Assembly: GCF_000626635.1 (NCBI RefSeq)
Contig: NZ_CP007451.1
Location: 3,233,501 to 3,297,500, forward strand
DNA from: Draconibacterium orientale
GTDB taxonomy: Bacteria; Bacteroidota; Bacteroidia; Bacteroidales; Prolixibacteraceae
Direction of reading: 5' to 3'
DNA length: 64,000 nt
Positions 12,572-25,871 of this stretch are shown here, one piece after another. The notes beneath the pieces are model-generated. The model did not search any database. It saw nothing but the letters and a program-made list of their open reading frames with translations, and was not told the DNA's origin. Within the stretch, counting starts at the first letter, position 1. Every line of letters begins with the position of its first letter. A program made the position numbers and the translations under genes.

Positions 12572-12600
12572 TTTGTACTCTTTAAAATTATTTATCTTTG
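12572..12600 (+). promoter_or_regulatory. Promoter of B12 riboswitch transcript 1
   Basis: TTTG (12572-12575), 17 bp, TATCTTTG (12593-12600), matching the Bacteroidetes -33/-7 pattern. The predicted start of transcription is about 12606, just before the riboswitch. Confidence 0.65.
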
Positions 12601-12605
12601 TGCGC

Positions 12606-12770
12606 GTTGGTTACGCACAATTGCGTTTAGGGAATCCGGTGTAAATCCGGAACTGTACCCGCAGCTGTAAATTCAGAAAATGATCATTTCTCACGCCACT
12701 GTCGGTTCAGCCAATGACGGGAAGGCAATGATCAAAGGGAATAAGTCAGAAGACCTGCCAGCAAATGGAT
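12606..12770 (+). promoter_or_regulatory. Cobalamin (AdoCbl) riboswitch 1
   Basis: Carries the conserved B12-aptamer blocks in order: AATCCGGTGTAAATCCGGAA, CTGTACCCGCAGCTGTAA, and near the 3' end GTCAGAAGACCTGCCAGC. It lies upstream of the BtuF-BtuC-BtuD genes and should repress them when cobalamin is plentiful. No clear terminator follows, so control is probably at translation. Confidence 0.95.
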
Positions 12771-12846
12771 GAACGAACTTCGGGAACAAAGTTTCGGGAA
12801 TCAATCTATTGATTTCTGCACCTGATTTCCTGTTAATTTTAAACGG

Positions 12847-15726: not shown

Positions 15727-15734
15727 TATCTTTG
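15727..15734 (+). promoter_or_regulatory. Predicted -7 element for riboswitch transcript 2
   Basis: TATCTTTG, an exact TAnnTTTG match about 15 bp upstream of the second B12 riboswitch. No TTTG at the ideal distance, so only the -7 box is supported. Confidence 0.5.
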
Positions 15735-15741
15735 TCGGTGA

Positions 15742-15935
15742 ATTTAGGTTCTTAAAATTTCTGTATCAGAAATAAGATGAAAAGGGAATCCGGTGAAAAA
15801 CCGGAGCTGTACCCGCAGCTGTAAGTCCTATCCGTCGGTTGACGGATCGTGTTATTGAACCATAAGCCACTTTCTGAGGGATCGGGAGGGAAGGCATCAA
15901 TAACCGGGATGAGCCAGAAGACCTGCCATAAATTC
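15742..15935 (+). promoter_or_regulatory. Cobalamin (AdoCbl) riboswitch 2
   Basis: Conserved blocks GGGAATCCGGTGAAAAACCG, CTGTACCCGCAGCTGTAA and GAGCCAGAAGACCTGCC are all present (15784-15928). It controls the BtuB-like receptor and downstream B12 genes. Independent of riboswitch 1, which is 3.1 kb upstream; the variable arms of the two differ, so this is not a recent duplication. Confidence 0.95.
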
Positions 15936-16025
15936 AATAGTAAATAATTAAGCTTCGGGATAAAAGCTTGAGAAATATCATCCGTATTTTTCACTGATTT
16001 ATCCAAAGCTCCTTAAGTGTTTAGA

Positions 16026-21658: not shown

Positions 21659-22420
21659 ATGAAAAATGAAATAAAAATATTCCTCACAGCCCTGATGTTT
21701 TACACCCGAATTCCGGTGGGAAGCATCGAAGGATGGTCGGAGAAGATGCTGAACAAAGCAACGCGCTACTTTCCGGTAATCGGATGGATTGTTGGAGGGG
21801 TTGGGGCATTGGTTTATTTTGCTTTTGGCGCTGTATTGCCAGTTACGCTGGCAGTAGCCCTCAGTATGGTGGCCACAATTCTGTTAACCGGAGCATTTCA
21901 CGAGGATGGTTTTGCCGATTTCTGCGATGGTTTTGGAGGCGGCTACACACCCGAACGTATCCTGGAAATAATGAAAGACAGCCGGATTGGTACCTACGGA
22001 ACAGTAGGTATTTTATCGGTTCTGGCGATAAAATTTCTGGCCTTGTCGCATATCGATACAATGCGCATTCCTTTTATTTTAATTGCCGGTCATGCCTTAA
22101 GTCGCATTTTCCCGGTGCTGCTAATTTATTCTTCGGTTTACGCGCGCCTGGATGCAACAAGCAAAACCAAGCCCGTTGGTAAAGCCGATTCGTTATTTTC
22201 GTTGCTGTTGGCACTGGTTACGGGCGGATTGTCATTGCTGTTCCTTGCCTGGCAGGAAACTGTTTTGGTGATTGCGGTTTTGCTCATTGTAACCTTTTTC
22301 TTCAGGAATTATATCACACGCAAATTAGGCGGTTACACCGGCGATGTTTTGGGTGCCCTGCAGCAATTGTGCGAAGTGTTTTTTTATTTGTGTATTCTTG
22401 CTTATCAAAATCTGGGATGA
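21659..22420 (+). CDS. cobS: Adenosylcobinamide-GDP ribazoletransferase CobS
   Basis: 253 residues, about six membrane helices. Signature FHEDGFADFCDGFGGGYTPERILEIMKDSRIGTYG in parts: acidic metal site in HEDGFADFCDG and MKDSRIGTYG. It joins adenosylcobinamide-GDP and alpha-ribazole phosphate at the inner membrane. The stop overlaps the cobC start (ATGA at 22417-22420). Confidence 0.95.
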   Translation: MKNEIKIFLTALMFYTRIPVGSIEGWSEKMLNKATRYFPVIGWIVGGVGALVYFAFGAVLPVTLAVALSMVATILLTGAFHEDGFADFCDGFGGGYTPERILEIMKDSRIGTYGTVGILSVLAIKFLALSHIDTMRIPFILIAGHALSRIFPVLLIYSSVYARLDATSKTKPVGKADSLFSLLLALVTGGLSLLFLAWQETVLVIAVLLIVTFFFRNYITRKLGGYTGDVLGALQQLCEVFFYLCILAYQNLG

Positions 22421-22965
22421 AGATCTACACGATCCGACATAGCAGCGTAAATGTAAAACCCGGCATTTGTTATGGGCAAACCGATGTTGATGTGGCCGAA
22501 TCGTTTTACGAAGAGCAAAAACGTCTTTCACAGGAATTAGCGCAGGTGAGTTTTGATGCCGTGTGGTCGAGCCCCTTATTGCGTTGCCGGAAACTGGCTG
22601 AAAGTCTTTTTCCGAATAAGGCGATTCATTTTGATTCGCGACTTAAAGAATTGAATTTTGGCGACTGGGAAATGCTGCCCTGGGACGAAATATATGCTCA
22701 ACCGGAGGGAAAAGACTGGATGGACAATTACCAGATACTGCCAACCAAAAACGGCGAATCGTACCCTGAAATGGTGGCGCGTGTTTCGGCTATTTTCAAT
22801 GCAATTAAAAACGAAAATGCTGAAAACATTGCCATTGTTGCCCATGCCGGAGTAATCCGCATTTTAAAAAGTGTGATTGAGAACCGTCCAATTTCTGAAC
22901 TTTTTGAAAATTTTAAACCGGCTTATGCCAGCTGTACCGTCTTCGAAATTAATCAACATGACTAA
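22417..22965 (+). CDS. cobC: Alpha-ribazole phosphatase CobC (histidine phosphatase family)
   Basis: 182 residues. Catalytic histidine in TIRHSSV, with RH kept but the usual glycine replaced by serine; ELNFGDWEMLPWDEI and the second histidine in VAHAGVIRIL. The start at 22417 overlaps the cobS stop by the ATGA arrangement; an upstream frame start at 22369 lies inside cobS. It dephosphorylates the ribazole or cobalamin 5'-phosphate at the end of nucleotide-loop assembly. Confidence 0.9.
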   Translation: MKIYTIRHSSVNVKPGICYGQTDVDVAESFYEEQKRLSQELAQVSFDAVWSSPLLRCRKLAESLFPNKAIHFDSRLKELNFGDWEMLPWDEIYAQPEGKDWMDNYQILPTKNGESYPEMVARVSAIFNAIKNENAENIAIVAHAGVIRILKSVIENRPISELFENFKPAYASCTVFEINQHD

Positions 22966-23321: not shown

Positions 23322-23402
23322 AAAAAAGGACGGGTCAACACCCATCCTTTTCACTAACTAAACCAATAAAACTAATCAAACCTAAACTTATGAACTAAAC
23401 TT
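23322..23402 (-). ncRNA. Tandem small RNA, copy 1
   Basis: About 80 nt, read leftward. From the predicted start near 23402 the RNA carries a conserved U-rich stretch (GUUUAGGUUUGAUUAG, then UUUUAUUGGUUUAGUUAG) and ends in a hairpin GGAUGGGU-GUUG-ACCCGUCC followed by six U (plus positions 23328-23347, tail 23327-23322). The fourth pair is a U-G wobble in this strand but would be a C-A mismatch in the opposite one, which favours minus-strand transcription. No open frame of useful length. Function unknown. Confidence 0.75.
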
Positions 23403-23408
23403 GTATGA

Positions 23409-23453
23409 CAAATGTACAATGAAAATGTAAACAGGAAGTTATCTCAATGTTAA
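23409..23453 (-). promoter_or_regulatory. Promoter of RNA copy 1
   Basis: In the minus strand: TTAACAT (23447-23453), 5 bp, TAAC (23438-23441), 21 bp, TACATTTG (23409-23416). The last is an exact TAnnTTTG -7 box about 7 bp before the predicted RNA start. The two TAAC motifs are 11 bp apart, one helical turn. Confidence 0.7.
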
Positions 23454-23563
23454 AAAATGTGTTTTATAACATCTTTTTAATCTATCGATACTTAAGAAAA
23501 ATCTATTGGACGATTTTGGGGCGGTGTTGAATGTATTGCTAAATCTACAGTTTGGGGTAAAAT

Positions 23564-23645
23564 AAAAAAGGACAGGTCAACACCTATCCTTTTGTCTAAC
23601 TAAACCAATAAAACTAATCAAACCTAAACTTATGAACTAAAACTT
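23564..23645 (-). ncRNA. Tandem small RNA, copy 2
   Basis: Same organisation as copy 1. The hairpin is GGAUAGGU-GUUG-ACCUGUCC with a U-run. Compared with copy 1, one G-C pair has become A-U with both sides changed together, a compensatory change. The U-rich body is otherwise identical. About 242 bp after copy 1. Confidence 0.75.
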
Positions 23646-23651
23646 ATAGTA

Positions 23652-23696
23652 CAAATGTAAGTGCTTTCTTCGAAACAAAAGTTAATCGAATGTTAA
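23652..23696 (-). promoter_or_regulatory. Promoter of RNA copy 2
   Basis: TTAACAT, 5 bp, TAAC (23681-23684), 21 bp, TACATTTG (23652-23659) in the minus strand. Spacing is identical to copy 1 although the DNA between the boxes differs. Confidence 0.7.
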
Positions 23697-23833
23697 GTTG
23701 TGTAATATCGTATTGTTATTATTTATGAGCGATAAGTATCATCTATTGCAAACGTTTGCGGAATAAAATGTAAAAAAGACTTTGGAGATGTGTTTGAACT
23801 GACAAAAAGATATTGAGGTTTTGGTTTTGTGCA

Positions 23834-23916
23834 TAAAAAAAGGACGAGTCAACACTCATCCTTTTCACTAACTAAACCAATAAAACTAATCAAACCTAAA
23901 CTTATGAACTAAACTT
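23834..23916 (-). ncRNA. Tandem small RNA, copy 3
   Basis: Same body; hairpin GGAUGAGU-GUUG-ACUCGUCC, seven-U tail. The third-from-loop pair is A-U instead of G-C, another compensatory change at a different position from copy 2. Confidence 0.75.
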
Positions 23917-23922
23917 GTAGTA

Positions 23923-23967
23923 CAAATTTAAGGCGAATACGATGAACTAAGGTTAATGGGATGTTAA
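23923..23967 (-). promoter_or_regulatory. Promoter of RNA copy 3
   Basis: TTAACAT (23961-23967), 5 bp, TAAC (23952-23955), 21 bp, TAAATTTG (23923-23930) in the minus strand. The -7 box varies only at the two unconstrained positions. Confidence 0.7.
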
Positions 23968-24380
23968 AATGTGTGCACATAACATATTTTAACTTTATGA
24001 ATCATCAGTTAAATTGATGGGAATTGTATGTCCATGATCTCATCTGTCAGGATATCAGTGCTTAATGTCGGCTGTGGTCTGTGAAAACACTTGTAATGTC
24101 AGGTTTGTACGAAAGTGTTGGTGTTAACTCAGATGTTAATTACGTATTAAGAACAGGGAAGATATAGCGCTTTGTAATTTTTAACTTGCTTTTCGAGGAT
24201 GGGGTGCCCCCTTGATTGTGAATTGACTTGTGATGCTATCATCTTTCCGCAATTTCGGAATGTTGTACGTTCTCACAATATAATTTAAAGGAATCAGAAC
24301 TGAATTAAATATGTTTCACCGAAAGATGAGATGTCGGGAGTGGGGTAATTCAGGTGTTGTTGGAGATGGTTGGTATAACG
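23968..24380. other. Spacer between RNA copies 3 and 4
   Basis: About 410 bp without an open frame, RNA copy or recognisable repeat. The other copies are 242-270 bp apart, but copies 3 and 4 are 547 bp apart, so a copy could have been lost here; no remnant of the U-rich core is visible. Confidence 0.4.
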
Positions 24381-24464
24381 AAAAAAAGGACGGGTCAACA
24401 CCCATCCTTTTCACTAACTAAACCAATAAAACTAATCAAACCTAAACTTATGAACTAAAACTTA
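24381..24464 (-). ncRNA. Tandem small RNA, copy 4
   Basis: Same body; hairpin identical to copy 1 (GGAUGGGU-GUUG-ACCCGUCC) with seven U. The upstream DNA is also closer to copy 1 than to the others, suggesting that 1 and 4 share a recent ancestor. Confidence 0.75.
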
Positions 24465-24469
24465 TACTG

Positions 24470-24514
24470 CAAAGATAAGGTGCGTATGTAAACCGGAGGT
24501 TACCCGAATGTTAA
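24470..24514 (-). promoter_or_regulatory. Promoter of RNA copy 4
   Basis: TTAACAT (24508-24514), 5 bp, TAAC (24499-24502), 21 bp, TATCTTTG (24470-24477) in the minus strand. Confidence 0.7.
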
Positions 24515-24626
24515 AAAATGTGTTTTATAACATATTTTAAATCTATTCAAGCTTAGAGAAAATCTATCGGGTGAAACTATTGTGGAAGATGGCAGGGCGA
24601 GTGGGGATTGTTTTCGAATTAAGCTA

Positions 24627-24711
24627 TAAAAAAAGGATGAGTCAACGCTCATCCTTTCCACTAACTAAACCAATAAAACTAATCAAACCTAAACTTGTGA
24701 ACTAAAACTTA
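24627..24711 (-). ncRNA. Tandem small RNA, copy 5
   Basis: Same body; hairpin GGAUGAGC-GUUG-ACUCAUCC with seven U. The U-G wobble of the other copies is a U-A pair here, and the loop-closing pair is lost (C-A). The most diverged copy. Confidence 0.7.
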
Positions 24712-24716
24712 TGCTG

Positions 24717-24747
24717 CAAAGATATGCTGAAAAACATATTGCGGTTA
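24717..24747 (-). promoter_or_regulatory. Promoter of RNA copy 5
   Basis: TAAC (24744-24747), 19 bp, TATCTTTG (24717-24724) in the minus strand. The distal TTAACAT box is missing and the spacing is 2 bp shorter than in copies 1-4, so regulation may differ. Confidence 0.55.
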
Positions 24748-24833
24748 CGATATGAGTGAAGAATCGTTCGGAAAGGCATATTTTTTAACAAACGCTTAAG
24801 CTTTGGAAAAAATTTTAGAAACTAAGTATTAAA

Positions 24834-24862
24834 AAAGCCCGTTCCAGTTTGCAACGAGCTTT
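24834..24862 (-). terminator. Terminator of the floA operon
   Basis: Stem AAAGCCCGTT (24834-24843) with AACGAGCTTT (24853-24862), one mismatch, followed in the minus strand by a run of six T. Lies 22 bp after the floA stop. Confidence 0.8.
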
Positions 24863-24884: not shown

Positions 24885-25871
24885 TTATTGATCTTCTGTA
24901 TTGCTTTTGTCTTCATCGGCAATCGACTCACGCATGGTAGTATCGGCCATTATGTTTTTGTATTTCATGTAATCCATAATTCCAAGGTTTCCACTGCGGA
25001 AGGCCTCCGAAATTGCCAGTGGTACCTGAACTTCAGCTTCAATAACCTTGGCTCTCATTTCTTGTGCTGTAGCCTTATTTTCCTGTTCCAGAGCAATTGC
25101 CATAGCACGGCGTTCTTCTGCTTTTGCCTGGGCAATGTTTTTGTCTGCCTCAGCCTGATCCATTTGAAGCACTGCTCCAATGTTTTTACCAATGTCGATG
25201 TCGGCAATATCAATTGATAATATTTCAAATGCTGTTCCAGCATCCAACCCTTTTTCAAGCACTACGCGCGAAATAAAATCAGGATTTTCCAACACCGCTT
25301 TGTGCGAATGCGATGATCCGATCGACGAAACAATTCCTTCACCTACGCGGGCGAGTACTGTTTCTTCTCCGGCTCCTCCAACCAATTGTTTAATGTTGGC
25401 CCGAACGGTTACCCTTGCTTTTGCAATGAGCTGAATACCGTCTTTCGAAACAGCAGTTACAGGCGGAGTATTAATTACTTTCGGATTCACCGACATTTGT
25501 ACAGCTTCAAAAACATCGCGACCTGCCAGGTCGATGGCGGTTGCCATATTAAAAGGTAGTTCGATGTTTGCCTTTGCTGCAGATACCAATGCATGAACAA
25601 CTCTCGCTACATGACCTCCGGCCAGGTAGTGGGCTTCCAAAGCATCGCGACTTAATTCAACATCGGCTTTTGCTCCTTCAATCATTGCGCGCACAATAAC
25701 TCCCGGAGGTACTTTCCGGAAACGCATTAAGAACAACTGTAACAACGAAATTCGTACGCCGGATACCAGCGCTGAAAACCATAATCCTATCGGGATAAAA
25801 TAGAGAATTATAAAAAGTAAAACGATGGCCCCAATGATTAATCCCCAGGCACCTACTGCATCTACTAACAT
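24885..25871 (-). CDS. floA: Flotillin-like protein FloA
   Basis: 328 residues. N-terminal membrane hairpin (residues about 10-50: [21 protein letters not shown]), then an SPFH-type domain ([56 protein letters not shown] in parts) and a coiled coil rich in Ala/Glu. FloA organises functional membrane microdomains. Its partner NfeD is encoded just upstream (2-bp gap), the usual pairing. Confidence 0.93.

Follow-up and report, generated by a model that had tools for sequence, protein, structure and literature searches.

Tandem small RNA genes beside floA in Draconibacterium orientale: a candidate variant of the FopS-like RNAs, predicted to pair with SusC start regions

Five near-identical repeats separate the genes floA and cobC in the genome of Draconibacterium orientale, and they raise the question of whether they are genes and, if so, what their products might do. 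Within the window (the whole stretch of DNA that was analysed, 64,000 nucleotides) a repeat search returned a 118-nt family of five members at spacings of 242, 272, 546 and 247 bp. Read on the minus strand, each of the five has TAnnTTTG and a hairpin with six to seven U after it, and the aligned columns of the U-rich 5′ body are almost invariant. An earlier sequence-only reading had described just this (five minus-strand units 242–547 bp apart, TAnnTTTG at the same place, a near-invariant U-rich body, a hairpin with 6–7 U) and all five copies agree with it. Its unit of about 80 nt fits the RNA, at about 83–86 nt, but not the repeat, which is longer because conserved promoter boxes run ∼65 nt upstream of TAnnTTTG. 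That the units hold no reading frame was also borne out: no ORF of at least 80 aa lies between 22966 and 24884. In the following list the 5′ end of each RNA is set ∼4 nt past TAnnTTTG and the 3′ end at the U run, boundaries drawn from the sequence.

22369..22965, plus strand: cobC, alpha-ribazole phosphatase, convergent neighbour of the array (family model)
23322..23404, minus strand: small RNA copy 1, TAnnTTTG at 23409-23416 (boundaries from sequence)
23438..23453, minus strand: TTAAC direct repeat of copy 1, TTAACATTGAGATAAC, one half imperfect (sequence)
23458..23473, minus strand: Cur-like dyad of copy 1, 2 mismatches, 41 nt before TAnnTTTG
23564..23647, minus strand: small RNA copy 2, TAnnTTTG at 23652-23659; best Cur-like match has 4 mismatches, hence no site
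23681..23696, minus strand: TTAAC direct repeat of copy 2, exact (pattern search)
23835..23918, minus strand: small RNA copy 3, TAnnTTTG at 23923-23930; best Cur-like match has 6 mismatches, hence no site
23952..23967, minus strand: TTAAC direct repeat of copy 3, exact (pattern search)
24381..24465, minus strand: small RNA copy 4, TAnnTTTG at 24470-24477; supplied the tandem body for the pairing tests
24499..24514, minus strand: TTAAC direct repeat of copy 4, TTAACATTCGGGTAAC, one half imperfect (sequence)
24519..24534, minus strand: Cur-like dyad of copy 4, 1 mismatch, 41 nt before TAnnTTTG
24628..24712, minus strand: small RNA copy 5, TAnnTTTG at 24717-24724, without TTAAC repeat
24723..24738, minus strand: Cur-like dyad of copy 5, 2 mismatches, sharing 2 nt with the end of TAnnTTTG
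∼24831-24862, minus strand: terminator-like hairpin of floA (read in the sequence)
24885..25871, minus strand: floA, flotillin-like protein, upstream neighbour of the array on the same strand (family model)

Compared with 200 dinucleotide shuffles, copies 1–5 fold with z-scores of −3.3, −4.1, −2.4, −4.3 and −1.6: copy 5 is the weakest folder (equalled or exceeded by 13 of 200 shuffles) and the other four are clear. Folding gives the 5′ body weak and varying pairs, leaving it otherwise single-stranded ahead of a Rho-independent terminator. Across 25 diverse copies from several genera 97.9% of cells in the terminator stem are paired, a percentage that leans toward the structure because the structure was named from the terminator; slid versions of it, used as a control on the same copies, pair in 29.7–64.5% of cells. 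The compensatory changes that had been claimed for the stem recur in this larger set: both sides are altered in 7 of the 12 stem pairs, and the covariation score of 0.423 (shuffled mean 0.232) is matched by none of 500 shuffles. One pair is U-A in 16 copies and U-G in nine, the wobble possible only in minus-strand RNA to which the sequence-only reading had pointed, and the U-G and G-U wobbles of the stem would be mismatches if the other strand were transcribed. On sequence evidence, then, the units are best read as a strand-specific small RNA gene in several copies, with genes, strand, conservation and covariation of a putative small RNA all legible in the DNA.

Membership of a known Rfam family had been named as one finding that would refute the claim. 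At the gathering threshold no family was found for the array, the matches in the window being two cobalamin riboswitches and one tRNA. The riboswitches (12591-12776 and 15729-15945) precede a region for cobamide salvage, at the end of which stands cobC, next to the array. Scores for microRNA, snoRNA, sraA, L20-leader and other Rfam models were far under their cut-offs and are read as chance; a SCARNA7 match (E 0.0027) lies outside the RNA copies and on the other strand.

The description of the RNA as apparently undescribed stands insofar as it has no Rfam family and falls under the cut-off for FopS, but FopS is a published functional analogue and a distant look-alike. FopS is a small RNA of Bacteroides thetaiotaomicron (Rfam RF04319, BTncRNA_FopS) published in 2025 (PMC11697453); according to that paper it represses susC at its start, by experiment, it binds RbpB, and its induction by bile is ascribed to an unknown regulator, with no mention of BT4338 or Cur. 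A literature search found no paper naming both FopS and BT4338, and none on Draconibacterium sRNA or on Prolixibacteraceae small RNA together with SusC.

How close is the array to FopS? No array copy reaches the RF04319 gathering score of 56 bits, and the tandem copies go unmatched even at an E-value of 10. The genome (5.13 Mb, a single contig) holds a sixth, diverged copy with a partly different body at G000:C1:4139939-4140010, again preceded by TAnnTTTG; this gives 15.8 and 16.5 bits with the FopS model, the 16.5-bit alignment lying over the 5′ core. The best score of that model over the whole genome, 36.1 bits, is elsewhere (L301) and also under the 56-bit cut-off. In the reciprocal direction a covariance model of the array family (model R1, built from 25 copies, its E-values rough) finds at E 0.01 none of 25 over-cut-off FopS loci and three of four below-cut-off loci: L340 (4.9e-5), L338 and L339. 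L340 scores about 42 bits with both models.

Like FopS, the array RNA has several paralogous copies per genome (six here), a TAnnTTTG-type sigma-ABfr promoter, a single-stranded 5′ body with CAU near the 5′ end, a 3′ terminator and, in many copies, a Cur-like dyad upstream; a clear −33 TTTG was not seen in the tandem copies on reading the alignment. Pairing with the susC start region is shown for FopS and computed only for the array RNA. Unlike FopS, the array is floA-linked and tandem, and its RNA differs in sequence beyond the 5′ core. The array RNA thus works like FopS in its computable features, yet is not a member of FopS by the Rfam rule. A shared origin is plausible; convergence on the SusC leader would look alike.

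The L301 locus is a second tandem small RNA gene pair of the same genome (L301 1270-1350 and 1498-1566, at about 2892070-2892370 of G000:C1), with TTAAC boxes, TATTTTTG and a terminator; one member gives the 36.1 bits with the FopS model, and model R1 scores the pair at 36.3 and 28.9 bits. Over-cut-off FopS genes are themselves clustered in other Bacteroidales, at G157:C1:3141137-3141708 (three within ∼600 bp) and G065:C1:231216-232458.

Two further small RNAs of Bacteroidota bear comparison. GibS (RF04182) has the R1 seed in common with FopS and base-pairs close to start codons, according to the same paper (PMC11697453); pairing of this kind is predicted for the array RNA too, but GibS is there described as single-copy with a non-canonical promoter. 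Its model matches the sixth copy on the wrong strand only, at 18.4 bits with a cut-off of 115. Rfp18 of Flavobacterium psychrophilum is, like the array RNA, conserved within its genus, and is described as acting on secreted-protein messages (PMC9723704). By that same description, which is what sets it apart, Rfp18 is strongly structured and pairs with protease messages through its third stem-loop (PMC9723704).

Read as its reverse complement, the body looks like an mRNA leader followed by a start codon, and SusC genes were chosen as test targets because of the FopS precedent (PMC11697453). A SusC model exceeds its cut-off at 39 places in the genome; 30 loci were analysed, 29 with a usable ATG (L119, lacking one, was dropped), and nine further over-cut-off places lie outside the SusC set. 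One SusC gene occurs as two adjacent pieces on one strand, G000:C1:2684631-2687590 (model positions 2-663 and 665-981). Against positions −40..+20 of the 29 starts the 52-nt body has a mean predicted energy of −20.6 kcal/mol; 200 dinucleotide shuffles average −14.8, and even their minimum, −18.9, does not reach that value. For one of the SusC genes, starting near G000:C1:855066, the predicted energy is −30.1 kcal/mol. In 79% of the 29 the predicted duplex takes in the whole start codon, as compared with 30% on average for shuffles (5 of 200 reach 79%), and the reversed body gives −16.6 kcal/mol on the same leaders. The predicted duplexes are long, AU-rich and imperfect. The excess over shuffles along SusC genes is greatest at −40..+20 (5.9 kcal/mol) and 3.3 at −20..+40; the −20 region also beats all 24 shuffles, as do smaller excesses of 2.1 at −60 and 2.2 at −160..−100, where the body has −18.1 and the shuffles −15.9 kcal/mol over the 29 genes. 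From 0 on, within the coding region, no excess beats all 24.

Is this pairing particular to SusC? For 154 non-SusC genes (half of 307) the body gives −15.2 kcal/mol versus −14.7 for shuffles, 12 of 60 being as low, and SusC energies are below those of the 154 (Mann-Whitney p 2e-8); the body of the sixth copy shows the same pattern (p 4e-7). Over all genes, n = 312 in a 464-kb sample, 5 of 45 shuffles are as low as the tandem body and none of 45 as low as the sixth copy. Twelve SusC leaders from genomes of other families pair as well (−18.6 versus −15.4, 0 of 60 shuffles as low), which means that the body fits a general type of SusC leader and is not evidence of co-evolution. On the leaders of the 29, the FopS-like RNA of L301 gives −18.0 kcal/mol and a 40-nt FopS piece of another genome −15.0, both figures standing without shuffles of their own. 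In terms of the proposed search for complements of the body among leaders of the same genome, pairing is predicted at SusC starts (−20.6 versus −14.8), and genome-wide the core complement shows no excess (76 places, five of them self, versus a control of 69). The suggested role as an antisense regulator gains support from the predicted SusC pairing.

The RNA might instead act in trans mainly on secreted or envelope messages, or through an RRM protein such as RbpB, with SusC as one target class. The pairing predictions do slightly favour 53 secreted-protein-like genes without SusC (−16.9 versus −15.3; 1 of 60 shuffles as low); in relatives, weak blast matches (L083, L086, L087, L091, L092) place complements of the body, on our own reading, just before the start codons of other genes; and FopS binds RbpB (PMC11697453), while two RRM_1 genes are present in the genome of the array. 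SusC leaders nevertheless pair better than the secreted-like set (p 5e-4 and 7e-4) and better than other genes, and we consider this alternative unlikely.

If the RNAs act on SusC messages at the start codon, as we favour, what might control them? Upstream of the copies (7 of 146 pattern copies, lacking TAnnTTTG, left out) two features are conserved despite a varying spacer: a TTAAC direct repeat and a Cur-like dyad. The former has a period of 10-11 nt, which we take to be reminiscent of OmpR/PhoB-type sites. The exact repeat occurs in 18 of 40 tandem promoters, where its distance is always the same, and in 39 of 97 solo promoters, where 36 share one distance (maximum in 200 shuffles two in each case), unlike FopS promoters, where it is found in only 2 of 29 (shuffle maximum one). 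The exact pattern TTAACATNNNNTTAAC is present six times in the genome, two of these in the array, and twice as a reversed control.

Phosphate (PhoB) control through the TTAAC boxes was considered and set aside: a reading of the ORF lists at L007, L008 (which L009 adjoins) and L010 revealed no recognised phosphate gene, and the literature search found no paper on a Bacteroidetes small RNA with PhoB or a Pho box. At L008 an RNA-like stretch (2182-2252, 36.2 bits with model R1) directly follows a secreted-protein gene whose promoter has a TTAACATTCGGTTAAC box, and a TTAAC box or a Cur-like dyad accompanies the related genes for secreted proteins at L009 and L375; the L008 stretch is possibly a small RNA derived from a 3′ end.

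The dyad was sought with the published consensus of BT4338/Cur, a regulator of carbohydrate use, wwwTATGTTnTAnAACATAwww (PMC6989115, PMC3878776). With up to two mismatches this consensus is found in 45 of 77 same-genus tandem-type promoters that are related by descent; 39 of the dyads lie 41–42 nt before TAnnTTTG and six at −2 nt (maximum in 100 shuffles two). None of 20 solo-type promoters of the genus has such a site; matches with E above 1e-15, without TAnnTTTG, with a short flank or with identical upstream sequence are excluded from this set of 77 and 20. Of FopS or FopS-like promoters in other Bacteroidales genomes, 14 of 29 carry the dyad (maximum in 300 shuffles two), the set being one best locus per genome, 25 over and four below the cut-off, with L312 dropped as near a contig end. 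Here 13 of the 14 lie 6–10 nt before TAnnTTTG, unlike the array dyads, mostly at 41 nt; the offsets 41, about 8 and −2 differ by roughly whole helical turns.

Of the five window copies, 1, 4 and 5 carry the site (2, 1 and 2 mismatches) and 2 and 3 do not. With at most one mismatch the consensus occurs at nine places in the genome (reversed control one), copy 4 among them; one of the nine is upstream of a SusC gene, and nearby ORFs include, on reading, a GntR-like and a LacI-like regulator. The upstream dyads at copies 1, 4 and 5, like those at many FopS loci, thus resemble sites of the Cur/BT4338 regulon, but its known targets, as far as the accessible parts of the papers describe them, are protein genes (PMC6989115, PMC3878776). 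Both the SusC pairing and the Cur-like sites are predictions made with controls.

How widely is the array shared? The small RNA was matched in 24 of 25 same-genus genomes (G023 has no match), at least two tandem-type copies sharing a contig in 18 of the 25. Among 16 genomes of other families there was no copy and one weak match that is not a copy; the G036 match, 30 nt without a terminator, was not counted as one. A scan of GTDB genomes with a 21-base pattern gave at least 118 matching stretches; among the matches listed are Draconibacterium, Maribellus, Mariniphaga, Sunxiuqinia, Mangrovibacterium, Prolixibacter, Tangfeifania, Puteibacter and Gaoshiqia, together with other Prolixibacteraceae, Bacteroidales and Bacteroidia. 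The covariance-model search that had been suggested, run across Bacteroidales, matched 34 of 295 genomes at E 0.01. Those that do better than 1e-4 belong to the family of the array (G000, G019, G096, G291) and to one other (G261, G167); the remaining 28 genomes are suggestive at most, because E-values are rough and about three genomes are expected by chance. Judged from these matches, the small RNA is widespread in Prolixibacteraceae.

Contigs labelled as a Chitinophaga pinensis MAG (L205, L270) also carry it, possibly from a misnamed or mixed bin. In two relatives (L081 1925-1993, minus strand; L082 1977-2046, plus strand) copies of the body have a different terminator, follow another hairpin and have no TAnnTTTG close upstream.

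Near-identical, intergenic tandem repeats could also belong to a mobile or structural element or serve as spare terminators, with no regulatory RNA involved. This is very improbable: the upstream alignments and the 25-copy stem alignment show promoter boxes and stem pairs conserved while spacers vary, the array has no ORF of transposase size, and the place beside floA is kept across genera (floA is present at 17 of 20 same-genus loci examined and 9 of 19 further RNA-bearing loci, including Sunxiuqinia (L195) and UBA12447 (L227)). More improbable still are 3′-end fragments of the floA message, which the array follows directly on the same strand, or cis-acting leaders, since every copy comes with a promoter element and a terminator, a terminator-like hairpin follows floA itself, and no gene follows the RNAs because the other neighbour, cobC, is convergent.

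We therefore return to FopS-like RNAs that act in trans from a tandem array under Cur and TTAAC control and block translation of SusC-class messages at the start codon, a reading to which we give a probability of about 0.7; the figure reflects the two of five window copies without a Cur-like site and the pairing excess beyond the start region. Each unit would be an independent gene, its regulated TAnnTTTG promoter yielding an RNA that begins with a U-rich and largely unstructured body and ends in a Rho-independent terminator. In messages for SusC-class outer-membrane transporters, the leader and start codon are complementary to this body; the predicted pairing covers the ribosome entry site, and we propose that SusC translation would therefore be blocked. 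Several near-identical copies would provide dose. Because input could come both through a CRP dyad of Cur/BT4338 type (copies 1, 4 and 5) and through the TTAAC direct repeat (copies 1–4), the RNA would be raised in carbon limitation and by a second signal, and glycan importers would be turned down. Expression, repression, Cur binding and the direction of control are what we infer from these features. BT4338 is described as both activator and repressor under carbon limitation (PMC6989115), and activation of the array RNAs in carbon shortage would follow by analogy with its behaviour.

A larger extension is tentative, and we put it a little short of even odds: FopS and the array may belong together in a single group of small RNAs directed against SusC, spread across the order and serving as a second arm of the Cur carbon regulon, in which Cur raises the RNAs when carbon is short, SusC translation is shut and tandem copy number sets the strength.

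The array itself is probably a new tandem form of the anti-SusC small RNAs, linked to floA, and its possible tie to the carbon master regulator can be tested. If this is true, control of glycan importers by small RNA would extend from gut Bacteroides to Prolixibacteraceae, with a different RNA and in tandem, and Cur/BT4338, by way of its DNA site, would be a candidate for the regulator of FopS.
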